From contig CM033391.1 in assembly GCA_019426215.1 (NCBI GenBank), positions 9,784,708 to 9,848,707 of the forward strand: 64,000 nt of DNA, read 5' to 3'. The translations under genes and the position numbers were made by a program. The DNA comes from Buddleja alternifolia. Taxonomy: Eukaryota; Streptophyta; Magnoliopsida; Lamiales; Scrophulariaceae. Each line of letters opens with the position of its first letter. Positions within the stretch are counted from its first letter, which is position 1. Of the stretch, positions 30,626 to 62,542 are shown one piece after another. The notes under the pieces are model-generated. The model searched no databases. It had not been told where the DNA came from and worked only from the letters and a program-made list of their open reading frames with translations.

Positions 30626-30945
30626 AATACACAGTAACTACCTGCCACCACATACAGCTCCTCGGGATACGTGGCAATAGCTTATTTTAAAAAATATCAA
30701 CGCCTTTCCTAGGATCCTATGTTTTGAGCCTACCAAAATAACTAAAGGCCGTGTATTTACTCTGCCAACCAAACAAAATTCATTTTCTATATTTGAAGTT
30801 TGAACTCATTATATTCTCGATGTTCCAAATTACGGTGAAATTCTAGAATAAATCAAGTTCAATGGAGCCAGTTTATTTAATATTATTGGATACAATTATT
30901 TTGAATGATTTTTATTATCCTGTTCTTACATTCAATAATATATAG
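30626..30945. other. Intergenic sequence left of the Tat element
   Basis: AT-rich sequence without recognisable genes. Its last five bases, TATAG, are the left target duplication of the Tat element. Confidence 0.6.
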
Positions 30946-31739
30946 TGTTTACACCTAAAAAGAAATGAACTTAAATTGAAGGGCCCAAACAGTCTTATTA
31001 ATGAAAGTAAATGGGCTTAAAGTGAGAAAGCCCAGAATAACTCATGTAATGATTAATGAAAATCGAGAAAAAGGACCTAAAGCAATTTAGTCCGATTTTT
31101 TATAATGAATGGGTTCAAACTGGATATGCCGCTAAGTCAGAAGCCCGCTAAAAGAAGCCCAAAAAGAGAAAGAGGTTACCCAGTTCAGAGACGCGCCAAT
31201 CAAATAATTTGAAAACCCAGTTGAAGGAGGTTACTAATCGTAAGGGAAGTGGGTACGTGATTAAGGGCAAGGCGGAGAAAGGAAGAAAAACACAACAGAA
31301 CAACTCTACACAGTTTTTATCTTTTTCTCTAGGAGTAGACATAATCTTAGGAGCAGCGTAATTTAGGTAATCTTGTAGATCAAATCCTGGTGATCAAGTG
31401 TTGTTGACACCGGCTTATTTACTTGCTCGAAGCATCTTTGTAACACACGACTGGGGATCAATATGGAGGTATAAAATTTATCGTTTTATCAGATTTAAGT
31501 ATTTGGTAGATAATTTTATATCTGGACTTGTATCTTCCTGTCTTATCTATTCTTCCTTATCAATTGCGATCCGAATAACAATTTTAAACAACACGCCAAA
31601 GTGTTAAAGTCTGAACCACCGTCTAGCGTATCAAACTTGAGTGCGGGGGTTGTTAGATAATTTTAAGTGGAGAATTATCACGGGGCTTGATTTAATTGAA
31701 TTAGCTCTTCCTTATTCAATTTGTTTTCATCCAAAAACA
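30946..31739 (+). repeat. 5' LTR of Tat-1
   Basis: It begins TGTTTACACCTAAAAAG and ends CATCCAAAAACA. It matches 42879-43671 throughout with roughly one difference per 20 bases, which makes the insertion fairly old. Confidence 0.95.
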
Positions 31740-31745
31740 AATTTT

Positions 31746-31763
31746 TGGCGACCACAGTGGGAG
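31746..31763 (+). other. Tat-1 primer-binding site
   Basis: TGGCGACCACAGTGGGAG lies just after the LTR. The form resembles sites of Tat-type elements (TGGCGMCCAC...GTGGG). The priming tRNA was not identified. Confidence 0.75.
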
Positions 31764-31821
31764 TTGGTTCACGTAAAATCAACTTCTCAAAATCGTCTAA
31801 GTCTTCCTGATAAGACTAGCA

Positions 31822-32646
31822 ATGGCAGACAAGGTAACTCGTGATGACTACACCGAGGATTTGGATATCCAGCCGGTGACAAAAACTAAAGTCAGAGCGG
31901 ACAAAATGTACGAACAGTTTGTCCGACTTATGAAACAAACCCTAGCAGGTGCTCGAGAGGATCAAAGAAGAGAATTCAATGATCAGTACCGAGCATTGGC
32001 ACAAGAGTCTGCTCGAATATTCATGGCAATTGTACAGGATATTGCTATAAGTACTCGAGATGGTTTTTCTCGAGAAGTCACCCAGGTTATAACTGAACTA
32101 GGTGAAATATTTAATCAAACTTGTGATATTTTTTCGAATATGATAAATACACAAGTAGTATTAGGTCTCGAACCTTTAATTAACGAGCATAATATTTTAA
32201 TCGAAAAAGTATCACAGCTGTTAGAACCAAGGACTCAAAGTAGATATATAAATCCAAATGAGATTCGTCTGGGATATCCTCGAGAAAACAGGCCTCAAAT
32301 TAGTCAATTTGAAATTGGTCAGACTTCAAGACCCTCACATCTCGAAGGCAATAGTAATGTTAATAATAATAACTCTCAAAATATAAATTCGAATTATAAC
32401 CAAACACCGCATCCTAATGTATATAATACAAGTTCAAATCCACATGGTAATCAAAATATAAGGCTTAATGGTCCCTTACCACCGAACGGAATGGGACAAA
32501 CTCCGGCAGGATATCCTCCACGTGAGTTTAGAAATCTCGAGACAGGATTTAATTTTGCCCAAGGGTATTTTGCTAGGGGGCAAAACCAGCATCAGGTGCC
32601 AAGTTTTCCTGGGATCTCGAATAATCCCATGAATACAGGGAACTAG
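31822..32646 (+). CDS. Tat-1 gag, N-terminal ORF (274 aa)
   Basis: The frame is intact from MADKVTRDDYTEDLDIQP. It is mostly helical and charged (MYEQFVRLMKQTLAGAREDQ), then Asn-rich and low in complexity (NVNNNNSQNINSNYNQ), ending at TAG. It has no zinc knuckle, because the element is deleted soon after. After the stop, the same reading continues in another frame (QMPYVGGQTIPND) up to the deletion junction near 32799. Assignment to gag rests on position and style, not on a clear motif. Confidence 0.7.
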   Translation: MADKVTRDDYTEDLDIQPVTKTKVRADKMYEQFVRLMKQTLAGAREDQRREFNDQYRALAQESARIFMAIVQDIAISTRDGFSREVTQVITELGEIFNQTCDIFSNMINTQVVLGLEPLINEHNILIEKVSQLLEPRTQSRYINPNEIRLGYPRENRPQISQFEIGQTSRPSHLEGNSNVNNNNSQNINSNYNQTPHPNVYNTSSNPHGNQNIRLNGPLPPNGMGQTPAGYPPREFRNLETGFNFAQGYFARGQNQHQVPSFPGISNNPMNTGN

Positions 32647-32789
32647 CCTTTTCGGGATTTCAAAATAATCCGAATTATGCTCATACCCCAAATAATTTCC
32701 AAATGCCATATGTTGGGGGACAAACCATTCCCAACGATTATATGGGGGGCAATCTTGGCCGGAATATTTAAATGTATCAGCCCAGTAGC

Positions 32790-33404
32790 AATAACCTTGT
32801 ATGCTCGAGTACATCAACTATTAAGCTATTTCGAGTCTGTAGAAATTACGCACGTGCCAAGGGAAAGTAATCAAATTTCCAATGATTTGGGCCAAATGGA
32901 ATCAGGATATAGGATCAATCCTGACTTACTCGAGTTAACAATTCAACTTGAGACAAGGATTCTGCTACCTTTCGAACAAAGGGCGTTGCAAGTTAATAAA
33001 ATTGATATCTTCAAAGAAAAAGAAGATTGGCGTCTCGAGATTATAGAATACTTGAAGGATCCATCCAAAGGAGGATTTTCCAATAAGTTAAAACTAACGG
33101 CTCACCATTATTTTTATGACGGGCAAGATTTGTATCGAAAAGACCCACAAGGAGTTTTATTAAAGTGCCTCGATTTAGAGGACGCTTTGGCTATAATGGC
33201 AGAAACCCACGAGGGGATTTGTGGGGCTCATCAAGCTGGCCAAAAAATGAGATGACTGATACATCGATATGGTTTTCATTGGCCCACTGTCCTTCGAGAT
33301 TGCATAAATTATGCAAAAGGATGCAAATAGTGTCAAAAATATGGCAGAGTGTTAAGACAGCTCACAATGGAGCTTAACTCAATTGTGAAGCCGTGGCCAT
33401 TTCG
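32790..33404 (+). pseudogene. Tat-1 RNase H end and integrase zinc finger, after internal deletion
   Basis: The frame 32677-33255 switches near 32799 from gag-like sequence to RNase H tail: YARVHQLLSYFESVEITHVP followed by RESNQISNDLGQMES. Protease, RT and most of RNase H are therefore missing, a loss of probably more than 2 kb. The integrase H2C2 finger follows with ETHEGICGAHQAGQKMR, a stop at 33253-33255, then HRYGFHWPTVLRDC and CKQCQKYG. Confidence 0.85.
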
Positions 33405-34234
33405 AGGATGGGCTATAGATATCATAGGTGAGATAAAACCAGCTTCTTCGAAGAGGCACAATTATATTTAGTAGCTACAAACTACTTTACTAAATGGGTT
33501 GAGGCTAAGGCATTCGAGAACATCAATTCGAAACTGGTGGTTGATTTCATTAAGGAATATATCATAACTCGATTCGGGATACTTGAGTCTATAACTTTTG
33601 ACCAGGCTAGGGTTTTCAACAGCACGGAGATGTTCGAATTTCTGAGTCAGTTTAAGAAAAATTTGTTAAATTCAACCCCTTATTATGTTCAAGCAAACGG
33701 ACAGACTGAATCTTCAAATAAGTTAATTAAAGGATGTATCCCCAAAATGATACAAAACAATCCTAAGATTTGGCACGAATTACTTATTGATACTTTATGG
33801 GCGTTAAGGACTATCAAAAATGATAGCCTAGGGGTTACATCTTTTCAATTAGTGTACGATCATAAGGCTGTTATACCAATGGAAATAAACATTAAGTCAA
33901 AAAGAATTTTAGAACAATCGAAACTCACACAAAAAGAATATGTCGACAATATGACCATCGAAAAACTAGATCATGAAATGATTCAAATAATGGCATTGCA
34001 GCAAATCGAACTCCAGAAAAAGAAAGTGGAAAAAAGCTATAATAAAAAGGTCAAGATAAGATCCTTTGAAGTAGGGGACTTAGTCTGGAAAATGATATTG
34101 CCAAAAGGCTCGAAAGATCATTTTTTCGGAAAATGGTCCCCTAAATAGGAAGGGCCATTTTCAATCTCTAGAGAATTATCGGGAAACTCATTTGGACTTC
34201 AGTATTTAAATGGTAAAGAATATAGAAGGAGCTT
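33405..34234 (+). pseudogene. Tat-1 integrase core, first part
   Basis: After RGWAIDIIGEI (first catalytic Asp) the frame changes near 33455. It continues YLVATNYFTKWVEAKAFENI, ITFDQARVF (second Asp) and NGQTESSNKLI (Glu). DTLWALRTIKND and FQLVYDHKAVIPMEI are typical of this integrase group. TAG at 34146 falls inside the C-terminal part. The coding sequence is cut at 34234 by the Athila-type insertion and resumes at 38754-39000. Confidence 0.9.
34093..34234 (+). repeat. 142-bp duplication, left copy
   Basis: This integrase-region segment (from TGATATTGCCAAAAGG to AGAAGGAGCTT) is repeated without a difference at 38754-38895. The copies directly abut both sides of the 34235-38753 insertion. 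Confidence 0.97.
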
Positions 34235-35869
34235 TGATAGGAGTCATTTTTACGTGTTATTAAGCCCCTTTGCGTTTATGTTTTAGGTTCATTTATCGCT
34301 TGATTTTGTCACTTGTGTGTTTAATTCGTGCATTAAGTGATTTCAGGCCTTAAATGGATACAATCGAAAAACGGACTGAAAAAGGACGTATAAAACAAGT
34401 TTAGGCCAAGATGTTCCACACCTCTACGACCAAACAAGCAAGAAACAAGCTGGAGTTAGCCAAAATCATATTTTAGTACCATTTCCGCACACCTGGGTGC
34501 CAAATCAAAAACAATCTCCACGTTGGAACGCCATTTGGATAAATTTAGAGACCGAATTTGATGACGTGTCCTTCTACAAAGTTTTAGATCTATGTCTTAT
34601 CTTTACATGGGGACTTGAATCATCCAATTCGGAGGTCTGTGGAGAAGTTTATGAATAAAATACTATCCCTGCGCTGGAAAATACGAAAGTGGCAGCTCCC
34701 ATTCTTAGTAGGTGGAAAACAAGAGAATGGTAGTTCACATTCTTGGTAGGAGGAAAGTAAGAGAATGGTAGGTGAAAAACAAGAGAATGGTAGCTCACAT
34801 TCTTGGTAGATGGAAAGCAAGAGAATGGTAGGTGGAAAGAAAAGAGAATGGAAGGACATGTTCTTGGTAGGTGGATTTTTTTGCTATAAAAGGAGGATTG
34901 AAGGTCATCCTACAAACACACTTGAAAACACATTCCCCATTGGGGGAGCCTAAACACATCCTATCATCTTCATCATCCTTAGATTAGTTATGAAGATTAT
35001 CAACAACCTCTGAAGGTGAAGAAATCAAGAAGCATGGAAGAGACGAAGATCGAAGTTCAACCATCAAAATACGAGGGAGTTTCTTAGATTTAGATTTATT
35101 TTTGTCTATGAATATGAATCTTAATTTAAGTTCCTATCTTTTATCTTTTATGATGAAATAGATTCTTCGAACTAAGGCCATGTTGAGGCTAAATTATGAT
35201 AATTGAGTTATAAATTGTGTTTTTCATATTAATTTTATTGTTGCTTTGTGTCTTGATCTTGTTTGAATGCATCATATGCTTAGCTACCATATGCATGATT
35301 TATTGCTTAAATTATTCGTTCGAGAGAAGTTAATTTAAGGTGCAAAGAGGATCATCACATAATCCGTAAAAAATAGGGAATTGCCCCTAGAGATAGGTAG
35401 AGATTCCCGGGTGCAGTTAGCCGGATTAATCCGGGGAAATTCTAGAACTTGAATGCATGATTGTTGGTTAGATTCTCGGATAGACATATCTAGAGAACCA
35501 TCAATTAATCATAGGATTATTACAGCCGAGAAATCGGGTAGTAATTATTTAAGGTTTTTTCTACCAAAGCAACATTAGTCTAATAATATGAGAACATGTT
35601 TATAATGAAAATTGATTAATTTATGCCAACACATGTATCTTAGTTGCTCTTTTCCATAGCTATCTTGATTTCGACATCTTGTTTCTTATATCTTACTTAC
35701 ATAATATTTTAGTTAATTCTTGTTTTAGTTTAAGTTCTTCAATTGCTTTAAAATCATAAACTAAAATACAAGTCCTTGAGGTTCGACAACCCGGACTTTA
35801 TTGTCCACTTTATTACTACACACGACCAGTCCACTTGCTGTTTAATACACGTAAGGGTTTTTCGTGTCA
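34235..35869 (+). repeat. LTR of Athila-2 (1635 bp)
   Basis: It starts TGATAGGAGTCATTTTTACG and ends TTCGTGTCA. It resembles the solo LTRs at 12396-14065 and 21890-23277. A minisatellite-like block at 34690-34875, built of AAGAGAATGGTAG, CACATTCTTGGTAG and GGTGGAAA units, is absent from the solo LTRs. Only a diverged family-2 palindrome (CACCTGGGTGC near 34489) remains. Confidence 0.93.
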
Positions 35870-35875
35870 AGTTTT

Positions 35876-35894
35876 TGGCGCCGTTGCCGGGGAC
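35876..35894 (+). other. Athila-2 primer-binding site (tRNA-Asp)
   Basis: TGGCGCCGTTGCCGGGGAC is an exact complement to the 3' end of tRNA-Asp(GUC), including the terminal CCA. Confidence 0.95.
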
Positions 35895-35992
35895 TTGTTT
35901 AATTTTAGTTTTTGATTTTATTGCAAGTTTTAAGTATTTATTTTATTTTTATTAATTTTTTTATTATTTTTTTCTTACACTATTACCTCGCA

Positions 35993-36952
35993 ATGGCTAG
36001 AAATTTTTCAGATATGACCCTTCCGGAGAATCAATTATGGCTGCAAAGCGTCATTCAATTCGCAAAGGATAGCAATTTTCCTGATATGACACTACCGGAG
36101 AATCAATTATGGCTCCAAAACGTCATTGAAGCGTGTTATGCACAAGGGTTCTTTCCACAACATTACCAAGAAAGAATTCCTACTCCGGAGGAACAACTTG
36201 ATAACACCATTGGAGAGCTCCACTTTATGATGAAGGACGCACGGCGGGAAATGAAGGAGATGAATCATCAACTCAAGCAACTAACGAGCGACATATCTGA
36301 GAAAGTACCATGGGCATTGCTTGGTACCACTGAGATAGATCAAAAGGAGGAATTCAACACCGTGACGTTGAATGAAATGAAGTTGGAAAATTCGAAAGCA
36401 GATTCCTCCAACGATGAGCATTCGACTCCTATCCTTCCTGAGGGTGTTGACATTTCTTTACTTTCTTCCCTAGCCACAGGTAAATCGGTATTTGATGCCG
36501 ACGATGGTAAGTTGTTATTGAATGTAGGAGATGACATGGTTAATTTCGATAACTATGAGGTTTTTGAGCATCTAATTGATTTTGATTTGTCTTTACACAT
36601 TGATGTTTTTGATCCTTTTAGTGTTGAGCACTTTCATGAAAAACGAGCCAATAATCTTCAACATCCATACATGATGGAGCTGAAATATGTCAAGGTGATT
36701 GGTGAAGAAAAACGAGACATTATCTCTAGCTTGGAGAAAAATCTGCACCACCATCCGGAGCATGAGGAAGAAAAGGTAATAGAGGTATTGAGGGACCATA
36801 AAAAAACTCGTGAGTGGATGATTGCTTGGTCTCAACCTAGGGTATTTATCACAGACGATGGACCAATCCTCAATACCAATATCCAAAGATTGAATCGATA
36901 CCCGAGAGTGGAGTGGAGAACAAACAAAGCATTCATACGTCATCCACCTTGA
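35993..36952 (+). CDS. Athila-2 chimeric gag/protease-derived ORF (319 aa)
   Basis: The start MARNFSDMTLPENQLWLQ corresponds in place to the gag start of Athila-1; an in-frame ATG at 35912 adds only 27 hydrophobic residues and is less likely. The N-terminus has a tandem repeat of about 25 residues (DMTLPENQLWLQ twice). A helical stretch follows (ELHFMMKDARREMKEMNHQL). Residues about 165-290 resemble the segment of Athila-1 between protease and RT: GKLLLNVGDDMVNFDNYEVF against GKLILRVGGDHATFNVYQAM, then IDVFDPFSVEHF and VIEVLRDHKKTREW. The protease active site and RT are absent. No stops or frameshifts are present. The function is unknown. Confidence 0.75.
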   Translation: MARNFSDMTLPENQLWLQSVIQFAKDSNFPDMTLPENQLWLQNVIEACYAQGFFPQHYQERIPTPEEQLDNTIGELHFMMKDARREMKEMNHQLKQLTSDISEKVPWALLGTTEIDQKEEFNTVTLNEMKLENSKADSSNDEHSTPILPEGVDISLLSSLATGKSVFDADDGKLLLNVGDDMVNFDNYEVFEHLIDFDLSLHIDVFDPFSVEHFHEKRANNLQHPYMMELKYVKVIGEEKRDIISSLEKNLHHHPEHEEEKVIEVLRDHKKTREWMIAWSQPRVFITDDGPILNTNIQRLNRYPRVEWRTNKAFIRHPP

Positions 36953-36969
36953 GCCAATCTCTTACATAA

Positions 36970-37016
36970 AGTCAAGTTAGTGACTTTAAAACAAGCGCTT
37001 CTTGGGAGGCAACCCA
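36970..37016 (+). other. Conserved post-ORF block in Athila-2
   Basis: It opens AGTCAAGTTAGTGACTTTA and closes GGGAGGCAACCCA, about 90 percent like 7126-7171 of Athila-1. In both elements it follows the main ORF by a few bases. Confidence 0.82.
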
Positions 37017-38739
37017 AGTTTGTAAGTTTTCTTTTCTTTTTGCTTTTCTTTTTGTTTTGTTTAGTTTGTTTCTTTATGTTGTGTTCTAGCATGCACTTTT
37101 AGCATGTATATTTTCATATGCTTGATGGTTTGTTTGATAAGTATGTTGAACCTGTTATAGTAGCAATTCCCCGTTGTTTTGAGAGGCCTATTTTGATGAG
37201 ATGGGTTTGATTTGGAACACATTTGTGATGAAGGATTGTTTTTCAACAATCATTGATTATAAGTACTCTTATACCTTTTGCATGCGTTTATGTGAGACAA
37301 CATTGGGGACAATGTTGAGTTTAAGTTTGGGGGAGTAATATGTGGGTAGTACTTTGTGGTTTTAATACATTCATATGATTGATCACCATGTGTTTGCTAT
37401 TTTTGTCATGTCATGTGTACCTCGTTTAGCTCAAGTTTGGGGGAATTTGTATGCTATCATGTTTATATGTGTTTATGTTGAGAAAATCAAGCATGATTGT
37501 CATGTCATGTGTACCTCGTTTAGCTCAAGTTTGGGGGAATTTGTATGCTATCATGTTTATATGTGTTTATGTTAAGAAAATCAAGCATGATTTTTTTTAG
37601 TCCTTCTAATTGATGCATTGAAATTGATTAACTTGGAAAAATGGCACTATTTCTTGAAATAAATTGAATTTAATGGAACATATATATCTTTGAAATTGCT
37701 CATGGAGACCCTAGATGAGATTGATTTCTTAGATGATTCACATTGCACAATAAATCGAGGGTAGAGGAGTTGAGAGGATAACCATCTTGAGACACTTAAG
37801 GAGTTTTTCCCGGAAAAATTAACTTAGATTTTTCATAAGGTTATAAGTTGAGTAGTAATTTTTTTATGCTAAACAATGAATTAAAAAGGGTGAAGTTTGG
37901 TATGACCACAAGTGGTCAGGCTAATATGTACTGGAGGTGAAAAGTTTCATGCTTATATACTGTACTATTATGCTAATTTGAGCTAAGCTCAAGCCAAAAA
38001 GAAGCGAATTGTTTAAAAGATCTAGTTTTATTTCGTGGCCTTTGACACTCGAGTGATTAAATCCTTAGGAGTGTTTTTACACTTAATGCCCCAAAACTAT
38101 CTAGTTTGGGAGTCATTGATCTAAAACTTGTTACATGGGTGTCATAGAAAGCCTAATGGAATAAAACATTGCACATGATCTAGCCTTAATGAAGTTAATT
38201 GGAAAGTTTCATATGAATTGAAAGTTTGAATGGTTGAGATAATGAAATTTAAATGGCTATGAGATTTTCTATGATTCTTATGCTTTGTGTTTGATCAAAA
38301 GTTGATAGACATGGGATTAATGTCCAAAATTTGGTAAGGATGCCTTTCGACTATAATACCTTAGATTTATTTTCACTACACCCTATGGAGTCTTTTCGAG
38401 TATTGATGTCACATGAGCAAAAGTAGTTGATATGCATATATATTTGTGAGCTATAAAAGGATGATTTTGTGCCATTTATTCTTGTTAATTATGTTGAGAT
38501 GTATTCATTTGGTTGGGATTGAAAGTTTGTTAGATTTTGTGGGTATATCTTCTGCAAACCCTCACGAGATTATAACTCGTCCTTTGAGGTAACTCAAAGG
38601 TTTAAAGGCTTGTTGCACATGCTAAGTGCAATCGTTTACTCCACGAAAGTGAGTTCGTTTGTTGTTTTTGTTTTCTCCTTTTGGTTGATGATGTTTTTTG
38701 TGCCCTAGACCTTTTATTGCTCGAGGTCGAGCAATTGAT
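37017..38739 (+). other. Athila-2 3' noncoding region
   Basis: No ORF of substance. It contains CATTGGGGACAATGTTG near 37301, repeated polypurine motifs TTTGGGGGA (near 37327, 37435 and 37529), and the 94-bp tandem duplication at 37405-37592. Its composition is close to the 3' region of Athila-1. Confidence 0.7.
37405..37592 (+). repeat. Tandem duplication of 94 bp with polypurine motif
   Basis: Two almost identical 94-bp units begin GTCATGTCATGTGTACC. Each holds CAAGTTTGGGGGAATTT, a polypurine-type motif. Confidence 0.93.
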
Positions 38740-38753
38740 AAGTTTGGGGGAGT
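38740..38753 (+). other. Athila-2 polypurine tract
   Basis: AAGTTTGGGGGAGT sits where the 3' LTR should begin. The next bases TGATA match both the LTR start (TGATAGG) and the host sequence (TGATATT). Confidence 0.85.
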
Positions 38754-38895
38754 TGATATTGCCAAAAGGCTCGAAAGATCATTTTTTCGGAAAATGGTCC
38801 CCTAAATAGGAAGGGCCATTTTCAATCTCTAGAGAATTATCGGGAAACTCATTTGGACTTCAGTATTTAAATGGTAAAGAATATAGAAGGAGCTT
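38754..38895 (+). repeat. 142-bp duplication, right copy
   Basis: Identical to 34093-34234 over all 142 bases, including the TAG stop. After it the Tat-1 integrase C-terminus continues in frame. Confidence 0.97.
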
Positions 38896-39000
38896 AAATG
38901 CAAAACATTTGAAGAAATATACGCCAAGAAAATGCAGAGGTTATATTCGAAAGACTGCCAGAAATGGGCAGTTTGTTCATAAATAATAACTAGAGTAACA
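38896..39000 (+). pseudogene. End of the Tat-1 integrase
   Basis: Following the duplicated NGKEYRRS, the sequence reads AKHLKKYTPRKCRGYI to a stop near 38987. This is the usual integrase C-terminus of this group (target chain NGK.LKKYY). Confidence 0.75.
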
Positions 39001-39030
39001 AATAATATTCGAAAGAAGTATTCTACAAAA

Positions 39031-42000
39031 TTACTCTAGAAAACGTACCAAATCTATTAATACATTGATAGGCAAAACAAAAGCATCTTTTTCTAGCAAA
39101 GTCGGCTTCACTACTGCCTCAAACTCATCAGTAAGAAGAGCAATCTGGTGGGTAACAACAACCAACTCCTCATTAGTCTTGTTGGCTAATTCGAGAAGGC
39201 AATTCCTCTCGGCTTGAAGATCGACAATTCTGGCGTCAAGATCCGCGATTTGGGCTAAGTAATCTGCTCGGGTATTTTCCAGAGTCGGGATTCAAACCTG
39301 AAGTTGGCCCAATTGATGTGACCTACAGGATATATCTCTGTTTCGAAGGGAGTAAATCTTTGATCAATTAAGCCCTGAATAGCAACAAGGCGACTCTCGA
39401 ACATCTGCCTCGCCGCAATAAACATAGGGCAACACTGTGAGGAAATCCTCGGCGTTTCACTGTCCAGGAATGATCGAAGCCTCCCAAGCATCTCCTGGTT
39501 AGTCGGATCAAGTCTGATCACATTAAGGGTTTCACTTAATTCATCCCTCGAGAAGGGCAGAAGCTCAACAACCCCTGAGAATGATAAACAAAATAATGTA
39601 AAGAAAGCAAAAAGTCATGTAAAAGGGGTATGAAGATATGATAAAGGTATTTACCTTCGGCGAGGATGACATTCATGGGCACCGCTGCATTCAAAGTAGA
39701 TGGGGCATCCAGGAATCTCAAAAGACTATGTTGCAATTTGATTTTCGAGAATCTCCTCAGGGGAGATTTCGACACCTAAGGAAATAAAAGGTTAATTTGA
39801 TGGTAATGTTCCAAAAGAATGTTGACTACATTACAGCTTACCTTCGAATGGTGTGGCTTCAGCGGTTTGTCCAACAGGATGTGAAGAACCCAACTCGAGA
39901 GCTCCTTCACCATTGGTTTTCTCTTCTGCCACGAGGACATGCTTCTCGACTGAGGTTTCTTCACTTAAAGAATCTACAAAAATAAGGATTCGTGAAAATC
40001 CAGGTTAAGAAATTGTTGTACAAATAGAAATAAAACCATTACTAATATACATACCTAGAGAATGGTCCTCGAGGACTTGAGTATGTTCCTCCGACTGAGA
40101 TGGGATATCATGTGAAGGCGCTTCGAATGGAGCATCCGCCAGTAAGGGCATGTCCAATTCAGCCTCATCTTCTATCTCGATTACTGGAGTAGAAGTATGA
40201 ATGGTTTCTTTCAGGGGAATCAGTTTGGAAGGAGTCTCACTCGAAGGGCATGCATGCAGATACCTCTCAATATAAACGAAGAAAGATATAAAAAACTCAT
40301 AAAACTGGAAAAGAAAAGATGCTAACCAGCCTCGAAAGACCCATGTAATTTTCGCCTTTGGAACACGATGGGCACATCCTCATCTTCATCGTCGTCCTCG
40401 ACAGCAGTTTGAATAGCTGGGGAAGGTTCTCGAATAGTAATGTCCTCAGTTCGGCGTCTTCGAGTGACAGGTGGAGATGTAGCAGTAACTGGGGCCTTGG
40501 CCTTGTCTGCCCTCGAGGGGCGAGCGTGTGGAATAGATCTGAGAGGAGGCACCGCTAGAGCTTCAGATTCTCGAAGGGCCTGGTAAAGCCTCTCATGTGC
40601 TTGGGCTAAGGGGTTATCCCTCTCGAATCTCCACCCCGATGTGAGTGAAAAGGGGATAGCATATGCATCGTCCTGTTTATACAAACCGAAATCAAAAGAT
40701 CAAGATACTTTAAAGTGCAAAACAGAAATGAAAAAAGGAAGACCTTTCGTTACGCATACCTCAAAAGACAGCACTGTTGATAGTGCATTCATTTGGACGG
40801 ATCCCGAACAGAGTCTTGTAGCATCCATGACCAACTTTCGAATGATTTGCCTCGAGAAGTTGCGCTGCAAGACTTAATTCTAGAACTCGGCAAAGTGGGG
40901 ATCCACTCGAAGGATCCTACAAAAGGCCGGGATAGGGAAAATGACAACCTGGCTGGAAGGTTTCCCTCGAATGGTTGCCTCGGCCAATTCCCTTTTTGTC
41001 TTGGGAAAGATGTTTGATCTACCTGACCATGGGCGATTCAAAGTGCCCAGAAAAGGCAGAGCGAAGCTTTGGCTAATGCCAAACTGTCTCAGCACAACTG
41101 CAAAAAAGGGTAATATACAAATAAAAGAGGACATCCATTCGAATTCACTCAAAATATAGAACATGAAGAATATTGAAGGAATACCTGAGGGTTGTAAACC
41201 TCAACTCCAGGATTGTTATTCGCATACAGGAGATCTCGAGAGGAAAGGATAGATCTCCAATAAGGGCGATCATCATCAGTCCGCCTTAGCCCAAACGGTA
41301 GCATCCCCATAACATGCCCAATTCGAAATGGGCTGAACAATATTCGAGGACTGGGATTCCTCCTCGAATGATGGAGTCCTGATATTTAGCAACTCCGTGT
41401 AGTATAAAAATGACCAGCAGATTAGTAACCATAACGAACCCGCAACCTTTTTGACTTTCGAAGGGTCTTCGTAAATATGAAACATCATCCTGTAAAAGTG
41501 GGCCAGAATGAAAGGGCCTAATTCGACAGGATCCAAAGTTGTGGCAATATTGGCAGCTAGAGGCAAGAATGTCTTGTTGACTGCATAACATGTATTCATG
41601 AATAGGCGGCAGAAAACATAATTCAAAAATAGTACCTTTTCGAAATCGGTAACCTCGTCATCCATCTCGACGAAGTGCTTAACTAATCCTGAATAAGAGA
41701 TATTGGCGCCCCCACTTTTGCCATGATATTTAAACCAGATATTGGTAGCTTTCAAGAGTGCTCGAGCATCACCCTCCACTTCACCAGTTCGAAGTACAAC
41801 CCGATGGGGTGATGCTCCGGTAATAAGGGCCACGTCTTCGAGGGTGACCATCTGAAGTCCTCGAAGAAATATAAAGCAGTTATATGAAAGATGTCACGAG
41901 AGAGAAAGGGCATCCGTCATTACCTGTTCGAATGGGAGGGTTTGGTAGCAGGCTATCCGAATTAGCCTTAATACTCGATTGCTCTCCCATTTAGCATGAA

Positions 42001-42421
42001 ATCGATTGAGGTGATTGAACCAGGGAAATGCATCTGTGTTGCCAATCCATCCTATGGTTGGCTTCGTCGAGTTGATCCAAGCCAATTTACAGGACCCCTT
42101 AAGACAAAGAGAGGCATTGTCAGACTCAAGGGAAGGCCAAGTCCCGATTAGATTGGGAACATGTGGAGTGTCTGTTTCGAAGGCAGATGACTCGAAATAG
42201 GGACCCAAAGTCAGATGGCTAAGATTCTGACCGTGACGGTCGGAGGCCCACCGAGGGACGATATTTGTCGTATTGAGAGAGAAGACCTTAGCGTCAGAGT
42301 AATGGGCTTCGAATGCCCTAATTTCCTCGTAGAGGTCCGATGCTTCCTCACAGTCCAAGATGGACGCCTGAGGAATTAGAGAGGTCAGGTTGTGCACTGA
42401 ATGGTGTGGTGGAAAAGCCAT
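39031..42421 (-). pseudogene. Captured plant mobile domain (PMD) gene, antisense in Tat-1, seven exons
   Basis: The minus strand encodes a PMD (aminotransferase-like, MAIN/MAIL1-type) protein. Exon 1 (42421-41185) reads LTSLIPQASILDCEEA, FNHLNRFHAKWESNRVLRLI, TLEDVALITGASPHRVVL and LWLLICWSFLYYTELLNIRT. It is broken by TGA at 41894 (Trp to stop) and a frame change near 41290. Exon 2 (41097-40760) has VLRQFGISQSF, a hallmark near the PMD end, with stops at 40880 and just after. Exons 3 (40672-40327), 4 (about 40264-40055), 5 (39973-39842), 6 (39775-39655) and 7 (39574-39031) encode a basic, then acidic, then coiled-coil tail (ADYLAQIADLDARIVDLQAE). All introns are short (about 60-90 bases) with GT..AG ends. 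The decay suggests loss of function in this copy. Confidence 0.88.
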
Positions 42422-42554
42422 TGTCGCAAAGAAATGGTAAGAAGCACGCGAACTAAGGAGAAGGAAAATGGCGATTCTTTGCGCTAGTTAGCCCGATGAT
42501 GAAGAAAAAAGGGAAATTTTAGATTTTTGTGTATCTTGAGAATGAAATGTGAAG

Positions 42555-42563
42555 ATTTATATG
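42555..42563 (-). promoter_or_regulatory. TATA-like element upstream of the antisense PMD gene
   Basis: The minus strand reads CATATAAAT about 135 bases before the ATG at 42421. The second copy has CTATAAATATC at a similar distance. This supports an own promoter inside the retrotransposon; transcription is not shown. Confidence 0.55.
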
Positions 42564-42866
42564 TTTGCTTGGCACTGTTCAATGAAGCGATGCACCCAAT
42601 TAAATGAAGGATAATGGGGAAGATGAACGCAAAAGGGCGCATCTTTCCATAGCCGCCAAATCTATTAGAAGTCTGTTACAAAAAGGCATGACTTTTGATG
42701 ACCTGGAATCCGAATGGTCACCTATTACTAAGAATAGTCACCAAATTTATTAAAATTCTGTTGTAAAAGACATGATTTTTGATGTCCTGGGATCCGAATG
42801 GTCATCTGTTATTAAAAAGAATGAATGTGTCTTTTAATACACGTGAATCTGAATTATTCACATGTA

Positions 42867-42878
42867 TTAGGGGGCATT
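42867..42878 (+). other. Tat-1 polypurine tract
   Basis: TTAGGGGGCATT directly precedes the 3' LTR start TGTTTACACC. The same tract flanks the second Tat element at 62236-62247 on the minus strand. Confidence 0.85.
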
Positions 42879-43671
42879 TGTTTACACCTAAAAAGAAATG
42901 GGCTCAAATTGAAGGGCCCAAACAGTCTTATTAATGAAAGTAAATGGGCTTAAAGTGAGAAAGCCCAGAATAACCCATGTAATGATTAATGAAAATCGAG
43001 AAAAAGGACCTAGAGCAATTCAGTCCGATTTTTATAATGAAGGGGTCCAAATTGGATATGCCGCTAAGTCAGAAGCCCGCTAAAAGAAGCCTAAAAAGAG
43101 AAGGGGGTTACCCAGTTCAGAGACGCGCCAATCAAATAATTTGAAAACGCAGATGAAGGAGGTTACTAACCATAAAGGAAGTGGGTACGTGATAAAGGGC
43201 AAGGCGGAGAAAGGAAGAAAAACACAACAGAACAACTCTACACAGTTTTTATCTCTTTCTCTAGGAGTAGACATAATCTTAGGAGCAGCGTAATTTAGGT
43301 AATCTTGTAGATCAAATCCTGGTGATCAAGTGTTGTTGACAGCGGCTTATTTACTTGCTCGAAGCATCTTTGTAACACACGACTGGGGATCAATATGGAG
43401 GTATAAAGTTTATCTTTTTATTAGATTTAAGTATTTGGTAGATAATTTTATATCTTGACTTGTATTTTCCTGTCTTATCTATTCTTCCTTATCAATTGCG
43501 GTCCGAATAACAATTTTAAACAATACGCCAAAGTGTTAAAGTCTGAATCACCATCTAGCGTATCGAACTCGAGCGCGGGGGTTGTTAGATAATTCTAAGT
43601 GGAGAATTATCACGGGGCTTGAGTTAATCGAATTAACTCTTCTTTATTCAATTTGTTTTCATCCGGAAACA
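42879..43671 (+). repeat. 3' LTR of Tat-1
   Basis: It begins TGTTTACACCTAAAAAG and ends CATCCGGAAACA. It is followed by TATAG, matching the left flank. Confidence 0.95.
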
Positions 43672-43830
43672 TATAGTACATCAACTTTATTAAATCTGAT
43701 GTATAGAATCACCCCAAATTATGTCAATAAGACACACGAGAAGAATTCGTATTGTAGTCCCTCCAACGTTCAATCAATTATCAATTATAAAAAAGAAAAT
43801 AATTGCTTTAAACGAAGAGTATTAAAGATA

Positions 43831-45447: not shown

Positions 45448-46551
45448 CTAGATCAGCGTCCTCTTTTGTTCAAAGAGCTTTTCTGCGAATTTAATACTTT
45501 TCCCTGTCATAGAGTTTAACAGGAATGATCCATTCACTGAGTTTGAAAATATTTTGAATGGGTACTTGACCTTATCCATCTCTGTTAGACAGACCCACAT
45601 TCCACATGCCCTTTGGGTGGAAATATCATCTTCATTAATGAAACTGACCAAAGGAGCTTCTCCTGTTGCAACCTTAACTCTGTTGTAGGCTACCATATAT
45701 GGTCTCTGTAACTTAATGAAATGAAGCACTGGATGAGACCCTTTTCCTGCAATTTCTAGTGCTGCCGAAATAAACTTCAACTCTAGAATAACACCCTTTT
45801 TGAGGTGTTGGTTATTTTTCCATGAATCATACACGGCAATGGAAATCCAATCCGGAAGTTTGGAAATCTCCGGAAAACATGGTGATATAATATGTATTGA
45901 AGCTAATGCCCCAAAATCATACCATTTTTAGACTTCGTCGGGATTTGATCCTTCCTTCATCCAAATCCTAGGATATTTCCCTGATATTTCTAGCAAGGAC
46001 TTATTAGGATTTATTCCTTTTCTTGAGATTAATTTTTCCCAAGAGCGTTGATAAACCTGCCAGTGCAAATTAATTTTATCAGTATTAACCTTAGAGGTGC
46101 TGGTCTGTGGCCTAAGGTTAATCTCTCCCTCTTTTACCCCAGAGGTGCCAGGTTGACTTGAAGCAATGGAAGTTTGCACTTCTGATTGTTCAATTTTTTC
46201 CCTTTTTTCAGAATCTAAAAATGGACTTGTGCAAGTGGTATTTGAATCCACCGCTCCGGGTATAGAGCCCCGTTCTCTAAACGTAGGTTTTGAGTCCTTG
46301 TCTCTTAATTTGCGAGTCATCACTGAAGATGATGCCTTTCGAATTGGCACTTGTAATGTAGTCCATAATTGAGTCATGACATACATTGTTCCATTGATTG
46401 TGTCCTGGACCATGCCCAGATCAGCTTGTTGTATATGGCCAGCTACTTCAGCATTAGCTGATAACTGTCCAAACTTTTTTTCAAGCTCCTCAAGGTTTTC
46501 CCTGAGATGCCTGTATCTCTTGATGATGGAATTGGCTTCAGACACTTCCAT
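45448..46551 (-). pseudogene. Pararetrovirus ORF downstream of pol (transactivator/inclusion-body position)
   Basis: Two frames, 46551-45928 (207 codons) and 45834-45448 (128 codons), lie after RNase H. The first has a heptad-like N-terminus (RENLEELEKKFGQLSANAEV) and a Ser/Thr-rich middle. It occupies the place of the transactivator/viroplasmin gene of related viruses. Only position and general style support that, because no diagnostic motif was recognised. A stop or frame change separates the two pieces. Confidence 0.55.
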
Positions 46552-46553
46552 CT

Positions 46554-48645
46554 CTTGTCAGGAAATCTGCAAGAACATTTTCATGAGATTTCACGATAAT
46601 AATGTCAAAACAATAATATTGACATTCAGCTTGCCATCTGATAATACGTGTCTTTTCAATTTTTGATTCAAGTTTATTTTTCAAAAAGGCTTTTACATTA
46701 GTATTATCAACTTTCAATATAAATTTTTTAGCTAATAAAAACAGAGGCCATTTTTAAATGCCTTCCAAAAAGCAAAGAATTCTTTTTCGTTTATATGCCA
46801 AACTCAGGCTTGTTGTTCAATGAACAATCCTCCTGTATATCTACAAGGTTCTTCCCCTATAGTTGTCTTTTTCATGAGCACTGCTGCCCATCTATAATCA
46901 TTGGCATCTGTATAGACTACCAAATCATCATTGTCCTGTGGTATTGCGAGTTTAGGCAAGTTATTGCAAACTTGTTTCAACTCACGAATTCTTTGAGTGT
47001 TAATTTTTTCCCACTTCCACTTTGTGCTTTCTATTTCTTTTAAGAGAGGTCAAAATCGTATCAGTATCTTGCCAGATCTTTGATGAAGATACCTGCAAAG
47101 TTAACAATCCATAAAAAGCTTTGAAGTTGTTTTTTATCTTTTAGAACATCAGGAAAATTGTGTATTTTTTCCACAATATGTTCCTGTAGTTCAATACCTG
47201 TTTCGTCAATAAGAATACCCAGAAATTCAATCTTATTAACTCCAACGATTACTTTTTTTATCTTCAGAAAGCACTAATCCTTCTTTATAACATGCATCAG
47301 AAAATATTTCAAGGTGTTTAATATGCTCTTTCATATTTTTGGATGCAATCAGGATGTCGTCAACATAGACAAACATAAATTCGAAATAATTTTTAAATAG
47401 ATTATCCATCTTTCCTTGGTATATCTGGCCTGCATTTTCCAAACCCATTGGAAGTATGTTCCAGATATATTGACCTTGTGGAGTAGAAAATGCCGTATAT
47501 TTTTTAGACTCCTTTTCCATCTTAATCTGATAGAAACCAGATTTACAATCGAATTTAGAAAACACCTTTGCACCTTTAATGCAGTCAATTAAGTGTTCTC
47601 TGCTAGGAATATAATTACCATCAAAATCAAGTATTTATTGATGCCTTGATAGTTGATTACTAGTCTAGTTTTTCCTCTTTTCATTTCACCATAGTTTCTT
47701 ACCAGAAAACCAGGGCTACTATAAGCAGAGACTCCAGGTTCTATGATTAATATGCTCTTTTATGATTGTTTGAATATCCTTCTTATCCTCTATATTCATC
47801 TGGATTGGCTTGTATCGAACATACTCATACTTGCATTATTTTTTTACTTTTCGAGTAGCTTCGATCTTGTTTTTGTCCCACCAAGCTAAAGGATTCTCAT
47901 TGGAATTGGATCAATCTTTTGATATTTTCGAGAGAAAATTTACTTTCTTCATCTATATCAAAGAAGGACTTCTTCTCTTGTAAAGCATTCTTAAGAAGTT
48001 TTATTCCTTCTTCATCCAGATCTTTAACCTTAATATTTTTAAGAAGGTTAATTCTTTCTTTATCTAGATGAGATACTTCACAATATTCCTCATATCCCTG
48101 TTGTCTAAAAGACAGCAGAGCCTTACCAAATTTCCGTTTATCCTGCATTTTAGGATGCGTTAATTTGGAATCAGCATAAAAATCACCACGTTTGCTGCGA
48201 AAATTAATAGGCATAATCCTATTAAAAGCTTTTGCTCGCCGCAAAACTTGTATCTCACTACCCCAATTTGTAGTAAAAATCAAAAAAATTTGTTGTTATC
48301 TTGCACATATTTTGCAAAGGTTTGAATAAAATTATTACCCAACAAAATATTTGCTCCGGTATCATGCAAATAAATAGGTGGCATTTTTACCTTGAACCAA
48401 GGTGCTCCAAATGATCCTCCAATCATGATATGTTCTTCTCTTATTCCCTTATTGAGTATGAGGATTTTTTGAGAAAAATCTCTTCCTGCAATAATAGGTA
48501 AAGATTCCATAGCATTGCTAGGGAAAACACCAGGTTTTGCTGTACCAATTCCTGATCCGGAATCAATATAAGCTTCAAAGTATTCTGACTTATATTGTTC
48601 ATATAACATACCAATAGATATGTATATTGAAAAGAGACTGGTCAT
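46554..48645 (-). pseudogene. Pararetrovirus pol: protease, reverse transcriptase, RNase H
   Basis: The minus strand starts at ATG 48645. The protease active-site type motif DSGSG lies near 48560 and a second Asp region (HDTGAN) near 48360. RT shows FSKFDCKSGFYQIKM, LPMGLENA and the catalytic YVDD near 47370. RNase H ends with ENVLADFLTR near 46585. Frames break near 47240, 47600-47640 and 47900. The enzyme set would copy the viral RNA into DNA; there is no integrase. Confidence 0.9.
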
Positions 48646-48773
48646 TTATTCAACTCGAATAAGATGTCCATCCAAGCTAAATTCCATGTCTTTTCCTTTT
48701 CTTCCCCAAGGTTTATGTTCCTCAAGAAAACTTAATCCCAAGGTTACCAGACCTTGGTCTTGTCCAGCTCTTC

Positions 48774-49720
48774 CTAAGACAAATACTTAATGCCTGCTAT
48801 TTCTAACATACCTTCGTATTTGACCACTTTCGGTTGTTCCAAGTAATATAAATCATCACACGGGAAATAATTTTCACCTTTTGTGATATCAAATAAAACT
48901 TGGACTTCTTTCCATCCTTCAGGGCACCTAATCTTTACATTATTTACCCTAATAGCTTGAGGAGTTGAATCTTCAATTAATTCTTTTCCTTTTAAACTCC
49001 TAATCCTTTCCTCTGAAAAGGACATTCTACTATTAAAATCTGTTCTAGAACTCATTGAGCGATCTAGAACTGGATGATCTCGGATTAAGATATCAACACC
49101 ACCAATCCTTGGTATTTGAATGGGATCAAGTGCCATTACCTTAGCAAATTTCTTGAAAATTCTTAGAACTTCAATATACTCTTTCCTAATAAACAAATTA
49201 GAATGATGTGTATTGGAAAATGCATATGCAATTCTATATGTAATAGAATATGGTCTATTCCCTTCTTTCATAAGATCATTTCTTTTAAAGTCTTGATGAA
49301 GGGTTAAGACTCGGCTGAAATCTTGGTCAGCTAGGTTATATGCAATTCTTGGATGAATATCAAACATAAGTTGTCTGCATATAAGTTTCCTACCATTGTA
49401 CCAAGACAACCATTTCTTAAATTATTTATTCTCTTATCCATTATCGATAAGTGTAATGGAGAATTAACTTCCTCTTTGAAAGAGGCTTTAATTACTTCTT
49501 CAATAGTTCCTATATGGATCCATTTCATAGTAACAACTACTTCCTCTTTAAGCTTACTTAATTCCTCTAGAATTTCTTCCTTTGGAATAAGTTGCATATC
49601 CATCACATTATCGGTTAATTCTATAGGAATTGCAAACTCCCCTGAACTTACCTTGTATATGATGTCATGCCGCCTTTGGTTTAATCCTATTTGATTTAGG
49701 ATTCGGCTGATTCCACTAAC
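48774..49720 (-). pseudogene. Pararetrovirus movement protein (30K type)
   Basis: The minus-strand frames 49606-49331 and 49409-48774 overlap through a frameshift near 49370. IHIGTIEEVIKASFKEEVNS resembles the conserved N-terminal part of the 30K movement protein family. A hydrophobic/charged pattern with YRIAYAFSN follows. It lies between the capsid zinc knuckle and protease. Confidence 0.7.
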
Positions 49721-49829
49721 TCTGAAACCATTATATGGTCCAAGGTTAGAGTCTTGTCTGATATATATGACCTTGAAAAGAACCTTGATAGGCTATATGA
49801 TGTTTGGAGCCTATTTTCTCCGTGAAAAT

Positions 49830-51256
49830 TATTCTGATTTGGTTGAAGATCCATCCGAATCTATTTCTTCCTCATAGACACTTTCGTCTGAGGGTATATT
49901 TTCAAATTGGTAAACTGGTACCAAATTTCCATAGAAAACTGCATCCAGTATGTCCGCAGTGGCTTCAAATTGTTTCAATTTACCACTTTTTTGTGAACAA
50001 TCTGGTGAAATGTGGCCACGAGCTCCACATGTCTAGCAGTTACAATCTTTAAAACTTTCATTTGTTCGGGTGTGAGCCCTTCTGAAAGTTCATCTTGTGG
50101 AGTTTTTTCCATCGGATTTTCGAGATCCTTGAGAAGACACCCTTATTGGTCCAGATCTCTGGCTAGATTTGTAAGATCAGACTTTTGATTTTGACCACCA
50201 AGACTTTCGCCTGAAAGAAAATCGCCTTTTTTGGCTCCGATTGGTATCAGCGCTTATAAACCGTTTTCTCTTCTTTATCTGCTCAATTGATTCTCCAATA
50301 ATTGTTGAAAAATCATTATTATCACAGCATAGAGGGGTTTTCTTTATCTTTCCTCTAAGCTTTTTCATGTTCTTTTGAAGGGAAGCCTGATAACACCAAT
50401 CCTTTAGTTTATCTTTTAAGAAAGACATATGTCGGGCTACTGAATCAAGTTGTCCCTCTGGTATCTTGTAGGATTGTTAACATTTCTCTCCAAGAACTGC
50501 AAATTTTTGCAAAGAACATTGATGCCACAATCTGTGGTGTTACGTCACTCTGAAAGAAGTATTTGCAAAACCAATAGATATATTCATCTATTGCACAAAT
50601 ATTTCTTAATTCAATACCATAAGAGCCTGTGTGTACTCTCTGGTTTTTTCCGTATTATTTTGATCGAAGTATCCATCTTCAATAAAATGTAATTTAATGA
50701 GTTTTCTAAATCTTTCTGCAATAGTGCTTTTAGATTCTCCTTCTAAGGCTCCTTGCTTGGTTGTTTCAGGGGTACGTTCCCATCTGGGTTTTACCGATCC
50801 TTCCAAGCTTAACTTCATTAATCTAATGAAGTTTTCTTTATCGAGATCCAGTGTGGTTGCTGCTATCTTTATAGTTTCTACCCATTCATCGATTAATTTT
50901 TCGATGTTTCTGAAATCGATAACATCCAAATTAAGGATAGTACCATATGGATGCAAAAGTTGTAACATAGTCCTTGGCCAGGGTGTATTTTCTGGTATCC
51001 TATTTGGATTTCTTATGGGATTTGCTCTAAACGTTGTACCCCTAAGAGCGGGTCCCGCGTTTGTATGCAAATCACTACTTTCTCGCATCGTTTCACCCGG
51101 TGGAGGATTATTAGATGCGGAACTTTCTCCTGACATTGTTAAAGCCAGAGGATTTGTTACATTGGCTGTGATATTAACCAAATCCACAAAAGTTAGTTGA
51201 GAAAAAGACTCAATTAGTTCTTGAAGATCAGATGGGTCTACCCTTGAAATATCCAT
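49830..51256 (-). pseudogene. Pararetrovirus capsid region with CCHC motif
   Basis: The minus strand has a 216-codon frame from 51256 to 50606, a basic stretch (RSQKRRFSFRRKSWW, near 50200), and a zinc-knuckle sequence TCGARGHISPDC near 50010-50040 whose first Cys is followed by a stop. An acidic tail (SDESVYEEEIDSD) lies near 49870. Capsid, basic region, then CCHC is the usual caulimovirid order. It is broken in several places. Confidence 0.72.
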
Positions 51257-51366
51257 ATTAATTTATATTTCTAAGGATTTCATTGATTAGATCTTCCTGT
51301 GTTTTAGGTTTTGGAATTTCCGTCGCCTTGCCCTTCTGATGTAGAAGAGGCACTCTTCCCAGCGCA

Positions 51367-61373: not shown

Positions 61374-62235
61374 TGTTTCGTAAAAAAAACAATCTAGACT
61401 AGGGAAGGATTTCGAATAGTCGTTCCAAGCCCGTGATAATTCTCCACTTAGAATTATCTTTCAACCCCCGCGCTCGAGTTCGATACGCTAGACGGTGGTT
61501 CAGAATTTAACACTTCGATGTGTTGTTTAAATTAGTTGTTCGGACCGCAATTGATGAAAATATGTATCTTCTTCGAATGATACAATAATACTAAAAGAAC
61601 AATTCAAATACAGATAAGAATTATTTCTATGATACTTAAATCTAACACAAAATAATTCTATACCTACGTGAGAATCTTCTTTTCTTAAAACGATGAAGAT
61701 GAATAGAAAACTCAGGTCAAGATACAAATTACTGTCAAATAATGAAATCTGAAAACATGTAATCTATACCTCCATAAAAGTCTTCAATTCGTGCTACAGA
61801 GAAACACTGGTATAACTCCGGGATTGGATCCAGCAATTCTTGAACAAATCTACACTACAAACTACTCCTAATTATATTTACGCCTACTCCTATGATAAGA
61901 GAGAAAAATAAGTTGTTCTGTGTTTTTTGTTGTCCTCTTCTCTCTCTTCTTTCCCGCTTTTATACTTCTGTGTCGTGGGTTTGCTTTTTCAACCGTCGGG
62001 AACCGCTTCTCTCTTCAACCGTCGAGAACTGCTTCCAACTTCTCTTTTAAAAATCCTTTTGTTTTAGCGGGATATTATTGTCGGGTTTTTTATTCTAATT
62101 TTATCAGACCTGTTTTCTTCGATGGGCTTACCCTTTTAAACTTTTGGACCCATTAATCGTTGTTGGGCCTGTTTTAGGTCTTTCACTTTGGGCCTTTCTC
62201 AGGTTTTTCAACCTATTTTATTTTTAGTGTAAACA
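61374..62235 (-). repeat. 3' LTR of Tat-2 (862 bp)
   Basis: On the minus strand it starts TGTTTACACTAAAAATA (62235) and ends CGAAACA (61374). Its internal block (plus strand CCGTGATAATTCTCCACTTA) matches the Tat-1 LTR in reverse; elsewhere it is clearly diverged. The minus-strand polypurine tract TTAGGGGGGCATT lies at 62236-62248. Confidence 0.9.
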
Positions 62236-62531: not shown

Positions 62532-62542
62532 CTATAAATATC
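62532..62542 (+). promoter_or_regulatory. TATA box of the Tat-2 PMD gene
   Basis: CTATAAATATC lies about 160 bases before the ATG at 62701. Its position mirrors that in Tat-1. The leader between them is TC-rich. Confidence 0.65.

Follow-up and report, generated by a model that had tools for sequence, protein, structure and literature searches.

The window, by which we mean the whole 64,000-nucleotide stretch of Buddleja alternifolia DNA that was analyzed (C2:9784708-9848707), contains a long terminal repeat (LTR) retrotransposon with a plant mobile domain (PMD) gene on the strand opposite to the element's own genes. The element spans positions 30946–43671 on the plus strand, from a 5′ LTR of 794 bp (30946–31739) to a 3′ LTR of 793 bp (42879–43671), with LTR ends TGTTTACACC...CA, and is bounded on the left (30941–30945) and right (43672–43676) by the target-site duplication TATAG. 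Two features of Ty3/gypsy membership, TG..CA LTRs and a 5-bp target duplication, are both present. The LTRs differ by 39 substitutions over 793 aligned sites, a Kimura two-parameter (K2P) distance of 0.051. The PMD gene lies on the minus strand between the end of the integrase remnant (34148) and the 3′ LTR, inside this single insertion, and matches the PF10536 profile with an E value of 4.3e-15 and 56.2 bits, over the curated cut-off of 34.9. An earlier first-pass annotation of the same DNA had placed a minus-strand PMD gene between pol and the 3′ LTR and had asked for this profile search, which bears out the placement.

All parts of the antisense gene are on the minus strand. A TATAAA at 42556–42561 lies 140 nt upstream of the ATG at 42421, with which exon 1 begins (41185–42421, encoding the PMD domain). 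There follow intron 1 (41098–41184, phase 0), exon 2 (40760–41097), intron 2 (40673–40759, phase 0), exon 3 (40327–40672), intron 3 (40250–40326, phase 1), exon 4 (40055–40249), intron 4 (39974–40054, phase 1), exon 5 (39842–39973), intron 5 (39776–39841, phase 1), exon 6 (39655–39775), in which the frame of the window copy is broken, intron 6 (39575–39654, phase 1) and exon 7 (39031–39574), which encodes a coiled-coil-like tail and ends with the stop at 39031. The modal exon lengths among the relatives described below, 1401 + 339 + 346 + 195 + 126 + 120 + 545 = 3072 nt, amount to 1024 codons and predict a family PMD protein of ≈1020 residues that ends in a coiled-coil tail. In the window copy, the tail has a weak to moderate heptad score: for the three stretches chosen, 103, 892 and 284 of 5000 shuffles matched it. 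The first-pass annotation had described seven exons with short GT–AG introns, a TATA-like box and an added coiled-coil tail, bounded by the ATG at 42421 and the stop at 39031 and without exon coordinates, so that a further intron-like stretch at 41852–41923, discussed below, may or may not be among its introns. The exon structure held up at the family level, in the relatives, and the box and the tail, which is coiled-coil-like and conserved, are real features of the gene.

The relatives comprised 29 copies from the same genome, these being the best-scoring matches given as loci, with the window copy itself left out. Across the six introns, the donor GT was kept at 167 of 170 aligned sites and the acceptor AG at 162 of 174, and all six GT–AG pairs were present in 15 of the 29 copies. 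Control dinucleotides were kept on average at 0.76 for GT and 0.78 for AG, and random sets of six GT matched the mean of the donors 9 times in 100000. No intronless copy was seen among the 29 wherever both ends of an intron were aligned, the lengths being 64–90 nt. The introns are rich in A and T, with a GC content of 26–32% versus 45–53% in the exons, high in T and without consistent codon periodicity; their base composition was matched by 0 of 20000 random GT–AG sets (five introns, picked after the fact).

The search of the plant's own genome covered 853.6 Mb and yielded at least 205 PMD matches and 150 scored exon-2 matches. At the 81 exon-2 places that could be paired by eye with listed exon-3 matches, intron 2 was present in every case, with a gap of 71–92 nt. 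A peptide spanning the intron-2 junction, which falls between its residues 29 and 30, gave 198 matches; those listed were mostly one-sided, several with a first aligned query residue of 18–25 and one that starts at residue 9. The last of these (54% identity) was read out and has intron 2, giving a total of 82 of 82 places measured, and the listed matches that start within residues 18–25 and are among the measured pairs all have the intron. Among 51 partly overlapping loci, 50 showed the two sides of the junction as separate matches 73–151 nt apart, and none showed an ungapped junction. At the family level, the introns persist through reverse transcription, as the first-pass annotation had proposed.

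A second, diverged element at the end of the window carries a second antisense PMD gene. Its exon 1 (62709–63998, plus strand) runs past the window end (L059, L061), ends in NPQ|GT, and is preceded by a TATAAA at 62533–62538 (plus strand) that aligns to the TATAAA of the first gene. The PF10536 score is 77.4 bits (cut-off 34.9). Exon 1 is 57% identical between the two window copies, while the protein P0001, itself scoring 71.5 bits against the same cut-off, shows 46% identity to the first copy and 50–52% to the second. The six introns of the second gene match those of the first in place and phase (0, 0, 1, 1, 1, 1); introns 1 and 2 were found by script, the other four by inspecting the printed sequence. 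Intron 1 measures 440 nt (L059 220-659) versus 87 nt in the first gene, and seems to contain short internal repeats. Since all six introns are common to both elements, the antisense gene and its introns predate the split between them, and the intron positions, whose conservation among copies the first-pass annotation had wanted examined, are conserved in the relatives and in the second element alike. Over the parts compared, the two proteins have diverged to about half identity (43–57%). The tails of the two genes are 43% identical; for that of the second, coiled-coil models gave weak matches below their cut-offs, and the heptad score was clear, with 0 of 400 shuffles matching each of the best four stretches (picked from a scan). 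A structure prediction of the second PMD from a two-row alignment reached a pLDDT of 31 and was not used.

On the strand opposite to its PMD gene, the second element has an integrase, then RVT_3, RNase H, reverse transcriptase and protease; that is, the reverse transcriptase is followed by two RNase H domains and the integrase (PF00078, PF17919, PF13456, rve). An ATG at 62701, upstream of the gene, is in a frame different from that of the long PMD frame of this copy, so that the start given for the second gene is tentative. Near the LTR end, ≈131 bp (61426–61555 versus 43491–43621) are 90% identical across the two element families; beyond that stretch, only a 66-bp piece at the border between LTR and internal region aligns as DNA outside the PMD gene.

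The ratio of nonsynonymous to synonymous substitution (dN/dS) was computed from 120 sampled pairs out of 406 pairs of copies, with exon 6 outside the measurement. Eight of ten stretches gave values of 0.29, 0.30, 0.39, 0.22, 0.29, 0.40, 0.44 and 0.22 (the third stretch overlaps the first two). In shifted frames the ratio was 0.70–1.54, except for the two remaining stretches, whose frame is doubtful and to which we return below. Between the two window copies, mismatches at the three codon positions numbered 121, 78 and 203 over 351 codons, and the first residue is M in 21 of the 26 relatives in which all exons could be mapped. This pattern of substitution argues that purifying selection held the protein while the family was active, and the retained reading frame indicates that the protein mattered during that time. 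Upstream of the gene, the TATAAA was kept in all 26 copies (of 29) in which the site was aligned, ranking first among 165 upstream hexamers (hexamer mean 0.35).

The window copy itself is a dead copy of the family gene, and in this respect the first-pass annotation, which had taken it for a complete gene, was wrong. Exon 1 contains an in-frame TGA at 41896, where 24 of the 29 relatives have TGG, and exon 2 contains a TAG at 40882 (TGG in 26 of 29) and a TAA at 40876 (CAA in 21 of 29). The acceptor of intron 3 has become AT (40251-40250; AG in 27 of 29 copies), the lengths of exons 1, 2, 6 and 7 differ from the modal ones by numbers not divisible by three, and the frame changes inside exon 7 near 39290. 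Near 41290 there is a deletion of ≈164 bp: among 28 relatives with both anchors aligned, 22 carry 164 nt more and five carry 120–162 nt more. The remaining one, L021, has 7 nt fewer and is uninformative, because its 5′ part sits ≈15 kb away. For the 1805 coding bases considered, the LTR divergence predicts ≈1.8 stops, and most of the damage could accordingly have arisen by decay after insertion. The three stops (41896, 40882 and 40876) also occur in 2, 2 and 1 relatives, respectively, which suggests that some of it may predate the insertion in the window.

The sense-strand genes of the host element are likewise remnants, all on the plus strand. An open reading frame (ORF) of 281 aa at 31801–32646 is named gag by its position and has no Pfam gag match. 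It is followed by a pol remnant at 32647–33255, comprising the end of an RVT_3 RNase H domain (≈32788–32895, score below cut-off) and the start of the integrase zinc finger (≈33190–33344, interrupted by a stop), and by an integrase core remnant at 33432–34148 (rve E 0.027, below cut-off) that shares 75% identity with the second element's integrase. Neither reverse transcriptase nor the first RNase H was found in the three frames of 31740–36530. The LTRs, the target-site duplication and the place of the antisense gene fit the assignment to Tat made by the first-pass annotation; the arrangement of pol, with two RNase H domains after the reverse transcriptase, is seen in the second element and survives here as a fragment below cut-off. 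TRP28 (PF04195), which in antisense orientation is the criterion for the Retand lineage, gave no match, either in the scanned antisense pieces of the broken window copy (exon 6 lay outside the scan) or in the three exons of the second element that were covered (1, 2 and 7). Protein searches returned P0001 as the sole relative and no match for exons 2–3; a search of the PDB with part of exon 1 gave no match, and scans of viral contig and genome contig collections gave no relatives.

Across the family, the PMD gene was on the strand opposite to the integrase in all 24 loci (of 29) in which an integrase was found. The two were 233–255 nt apart in 23 of these 24 copies and overlapped in the other (−192). 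Because this spacing is nearly constant, a nested insertion was dropped as the source of the PMD gene. In the window element, the space between integrase and PMD holds an extra 4661 bp (34250–38910), edged by a 157-bp duplicate (34093–34249 and 38754–38910) whose copies are 96% identical; within it lies a tandem pair at 37403–37590 with a 94-bp unit, 99% identical. Outside the element, the minus strand at 45448–51262 has broken frames resembling an endogenous plant pararetrovirus, among them a match to the domain of viral movement proteins (PF01107, E 1.6e-14) at 49331–49792.

We interpret the window element as a decayed Tat-type Ty3/gypsy copy from a family that carries an antisense, seven-exon PMD gene with its own TATA box and with introns protected by their strand, a reading to which we assign a probability of roughly 0.86. 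According to this model, the sense RNA of the element would carry the introns as reverse complements, lacking usable splice signals. The splicing machinery would be blind to them, the cDNA would retain them, and reverse transcription would copy them back intact in each round. From the antisense promoter, meanwhile, an ordinary mRNA would be made and spliced to yield the PMD protein. We infer that the element benefits from this protein, which most likely acts in the nucleus as an accessory factor on the expression or silencing of the element; gene23 of Grande offers an analogy that makes a nuclear accessory function likely (PMC7264820).

Several observations weigh against this model or limit it. 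Random sets of six AG matched the mean of the acceptors 5379 times in 100000, so the acceptors by themselves prove little. Not one of the 26 copies in which every exon could be mapped has an open spliced frame, and no intact protein was encountered; the sample consists of the copies closest to the dead window copy. Two stretches gave dN/dS values of 0.59 and 0.97 in the frame entered, which is doubtful: one base on, the values were 0.38 and 0.32, and for the last stretch the phase finder gave that frame. Four listed matches to the junction peptide start at residue 18, run across the junction at 29/30 and lay outside the read-out. The evidence for the introns comes from one genome, since P0001 ends at the donor of intron 1, possibly a contig end, and counts only as consistent. 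The mechanism, with transcription from the TATAAA and splicing of the product, is predicted from the anatomy of the gene and finds support in the lack of intronless copies among those examined.

The introns might be an artefact, produced by stitching GT–AG stretches over the stop codons of a decayed single-exon ORF. One stretch in the window copy does fit this description. The minus-strand sequence at 41852–41923 has GT...AG ends and hides the TGA at 41896, and was rejected as an intron since it is coding in the relatives: P0001 and the second window copy read through it (PFE.VTT.AL..SWHTSYNCF), 15 of its 24 residues agree between the two window copies, and its dN/dS among the 29 copies is 0.39. 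It is thus part of exon 1. The other six introns behave differently, being present wherever both ends were aligned, with donors kept, no consistent codon periodicity and high T, and recurring in the second element with partly different lengths. For these six we judge the artefact explanation to be refuted. That the window element alone recently captured a host PMD gene together with its introns would account for an intron-bearing gene with its own TATA box, and PMD proteins do exist as host genes (PMC5418596). The gene is, however, shared by 29 copies and by a second element whose PMD is 57% identical. Of the PMD loci in the genome, the three that score best, whose status as host genes is unproven, are 23–25% identical to the second copy over 197–230 residues, and two further PMD loci are 38–41% identical over 37–48 residues. 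We therefore consider a recent capture very improbable.

The antisense unit could also act as RNA, through double-stranded RNA or promoter interference, rather than through a protein, and regulatory antisense transcripts of LTR elements are indeed known (PMC7264820, PMC12786077). The purifying selection on amino acids in the correct frame and the excess of third-position changes make this improbable as the sole function; an added RNA effect would be compatible with them. A more specific proposal concerns what the protein does. Host PMD proteins are required for silencing (PMC5418596, PMC9899485), and it has already been suggested that an element-encoded PMD counteracts it (PMC8616336), so the protein might antagonize host silencing by MAIN/MAIL1/PP7L-MORC1. 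The 10-base DOWN motif of the MORC1 promoter was not enriched in the window, however (3 one-mismatch matches versus 5.75 expected), and did not occur in the LTRs, and we regard this activity as possible and rather doubtful. A broader scenario, in which the antisense strand is a safe place for intron-bearing genes, the lineage carried the full unit through its repeated RNA passages and the protein, made from spliced mRNA and nuclear, influences host PMD/MORC1 silencing in trans, we hold to be unlikely in its entirety. Under that scenario, dependence on splicing would also mean that the protein is made only from nuclear, chromosomal copies.

The antisense gene matters because passage through RNA should strip retroelements of their introns. 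A gene read from the opposite strand escapes this loss, and here tens of copies, and two element families with diverged proteins, have kept six introns. Retroelements may thus be carriers of fully regulated, intron-containing genes. There are also consequences for annotation: gene finding by long ORFs will miss such genes or label their elements as ORF-less, and the genes may be mistaken for host PMD genes. The gene model presented here provides a concrete basis for testing the role of PMD proteins encoded by transposable elements.

In the literature searched, no antisense gene that has several exons and keeps its introns was found for these elements, a provisional result, as Steinbauerova et al. 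2011, reportedly the first description of the extra ORFs, lay outside the search. Much of the rest is already in print, namely PMD domains in Ty3/gypsy elements, antisense ORFs, promoters of their own and the idea of counter-silencing; the first-pass annotation had correctly treated antisense ORFs and PMD domains in transposons as known. In a survey of LTR elements from plants, PMD was the commonest non-canonical domain (PMC9289625); it occurs in 57% of Ogre elements (PMC6317226) and forms clades encoded solely by Gypsy elements in a PMD phylogeny (PMC5418596). The PMD-carrying Ty3/gypsy elements of the PMD-A1/A2 clades and Ogre resemble the present ones in having PF10536 as an extra ORF, and a seven-exon antisense gene with retained introns is not described in the passages available from these papers (PMC6317226, PMC5418596, PMC9289625).

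In position and orientation, and in having a putative upstream promoter of its own as gene23 of Grande does, the gene resembles known antisense genes, those with TRP28 included, some of which have SMC domains (PMC7264820, PMC11963269). In one survey, all Retand elements had coding regions in antisense orientation between pol and the 3′ LTR (PMC11963269). The present gene differs in encoding PMD and not TRP28 in the pieces scanned, and in being multi-exon; the word intron is absent from both PMC7264820 and PMC11963269, and the former advises seeking antisense and spliced transcripts. PMD proteins associated with MULEs also belong to a mobile element, but to a DNA transposon, and in the MULE-linked PMD of the same genome both PMD pieces lie in a single open frame. 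At that locus (L060 3163-5262; G000 C15), a 700-aa MULE transposase frame (PF10551, E 7.8e-18) stands near a 639-aa open PMD frame.

Splicing in LTR elements, as proposed here, has precedents in the gag-pol intron of Ogre and in ORF3 of rotifer elements (PMC6317226, PMC5408684). In Ogre, the intron belongs to the sense strand and is kept via partial splicing, whereas here the strand alone would protect six introns. HBZ of HTLV-1 is spliced. Like the PMD gene described here, it is an antisense gene located near the 3′ LTR (PMC11963269).

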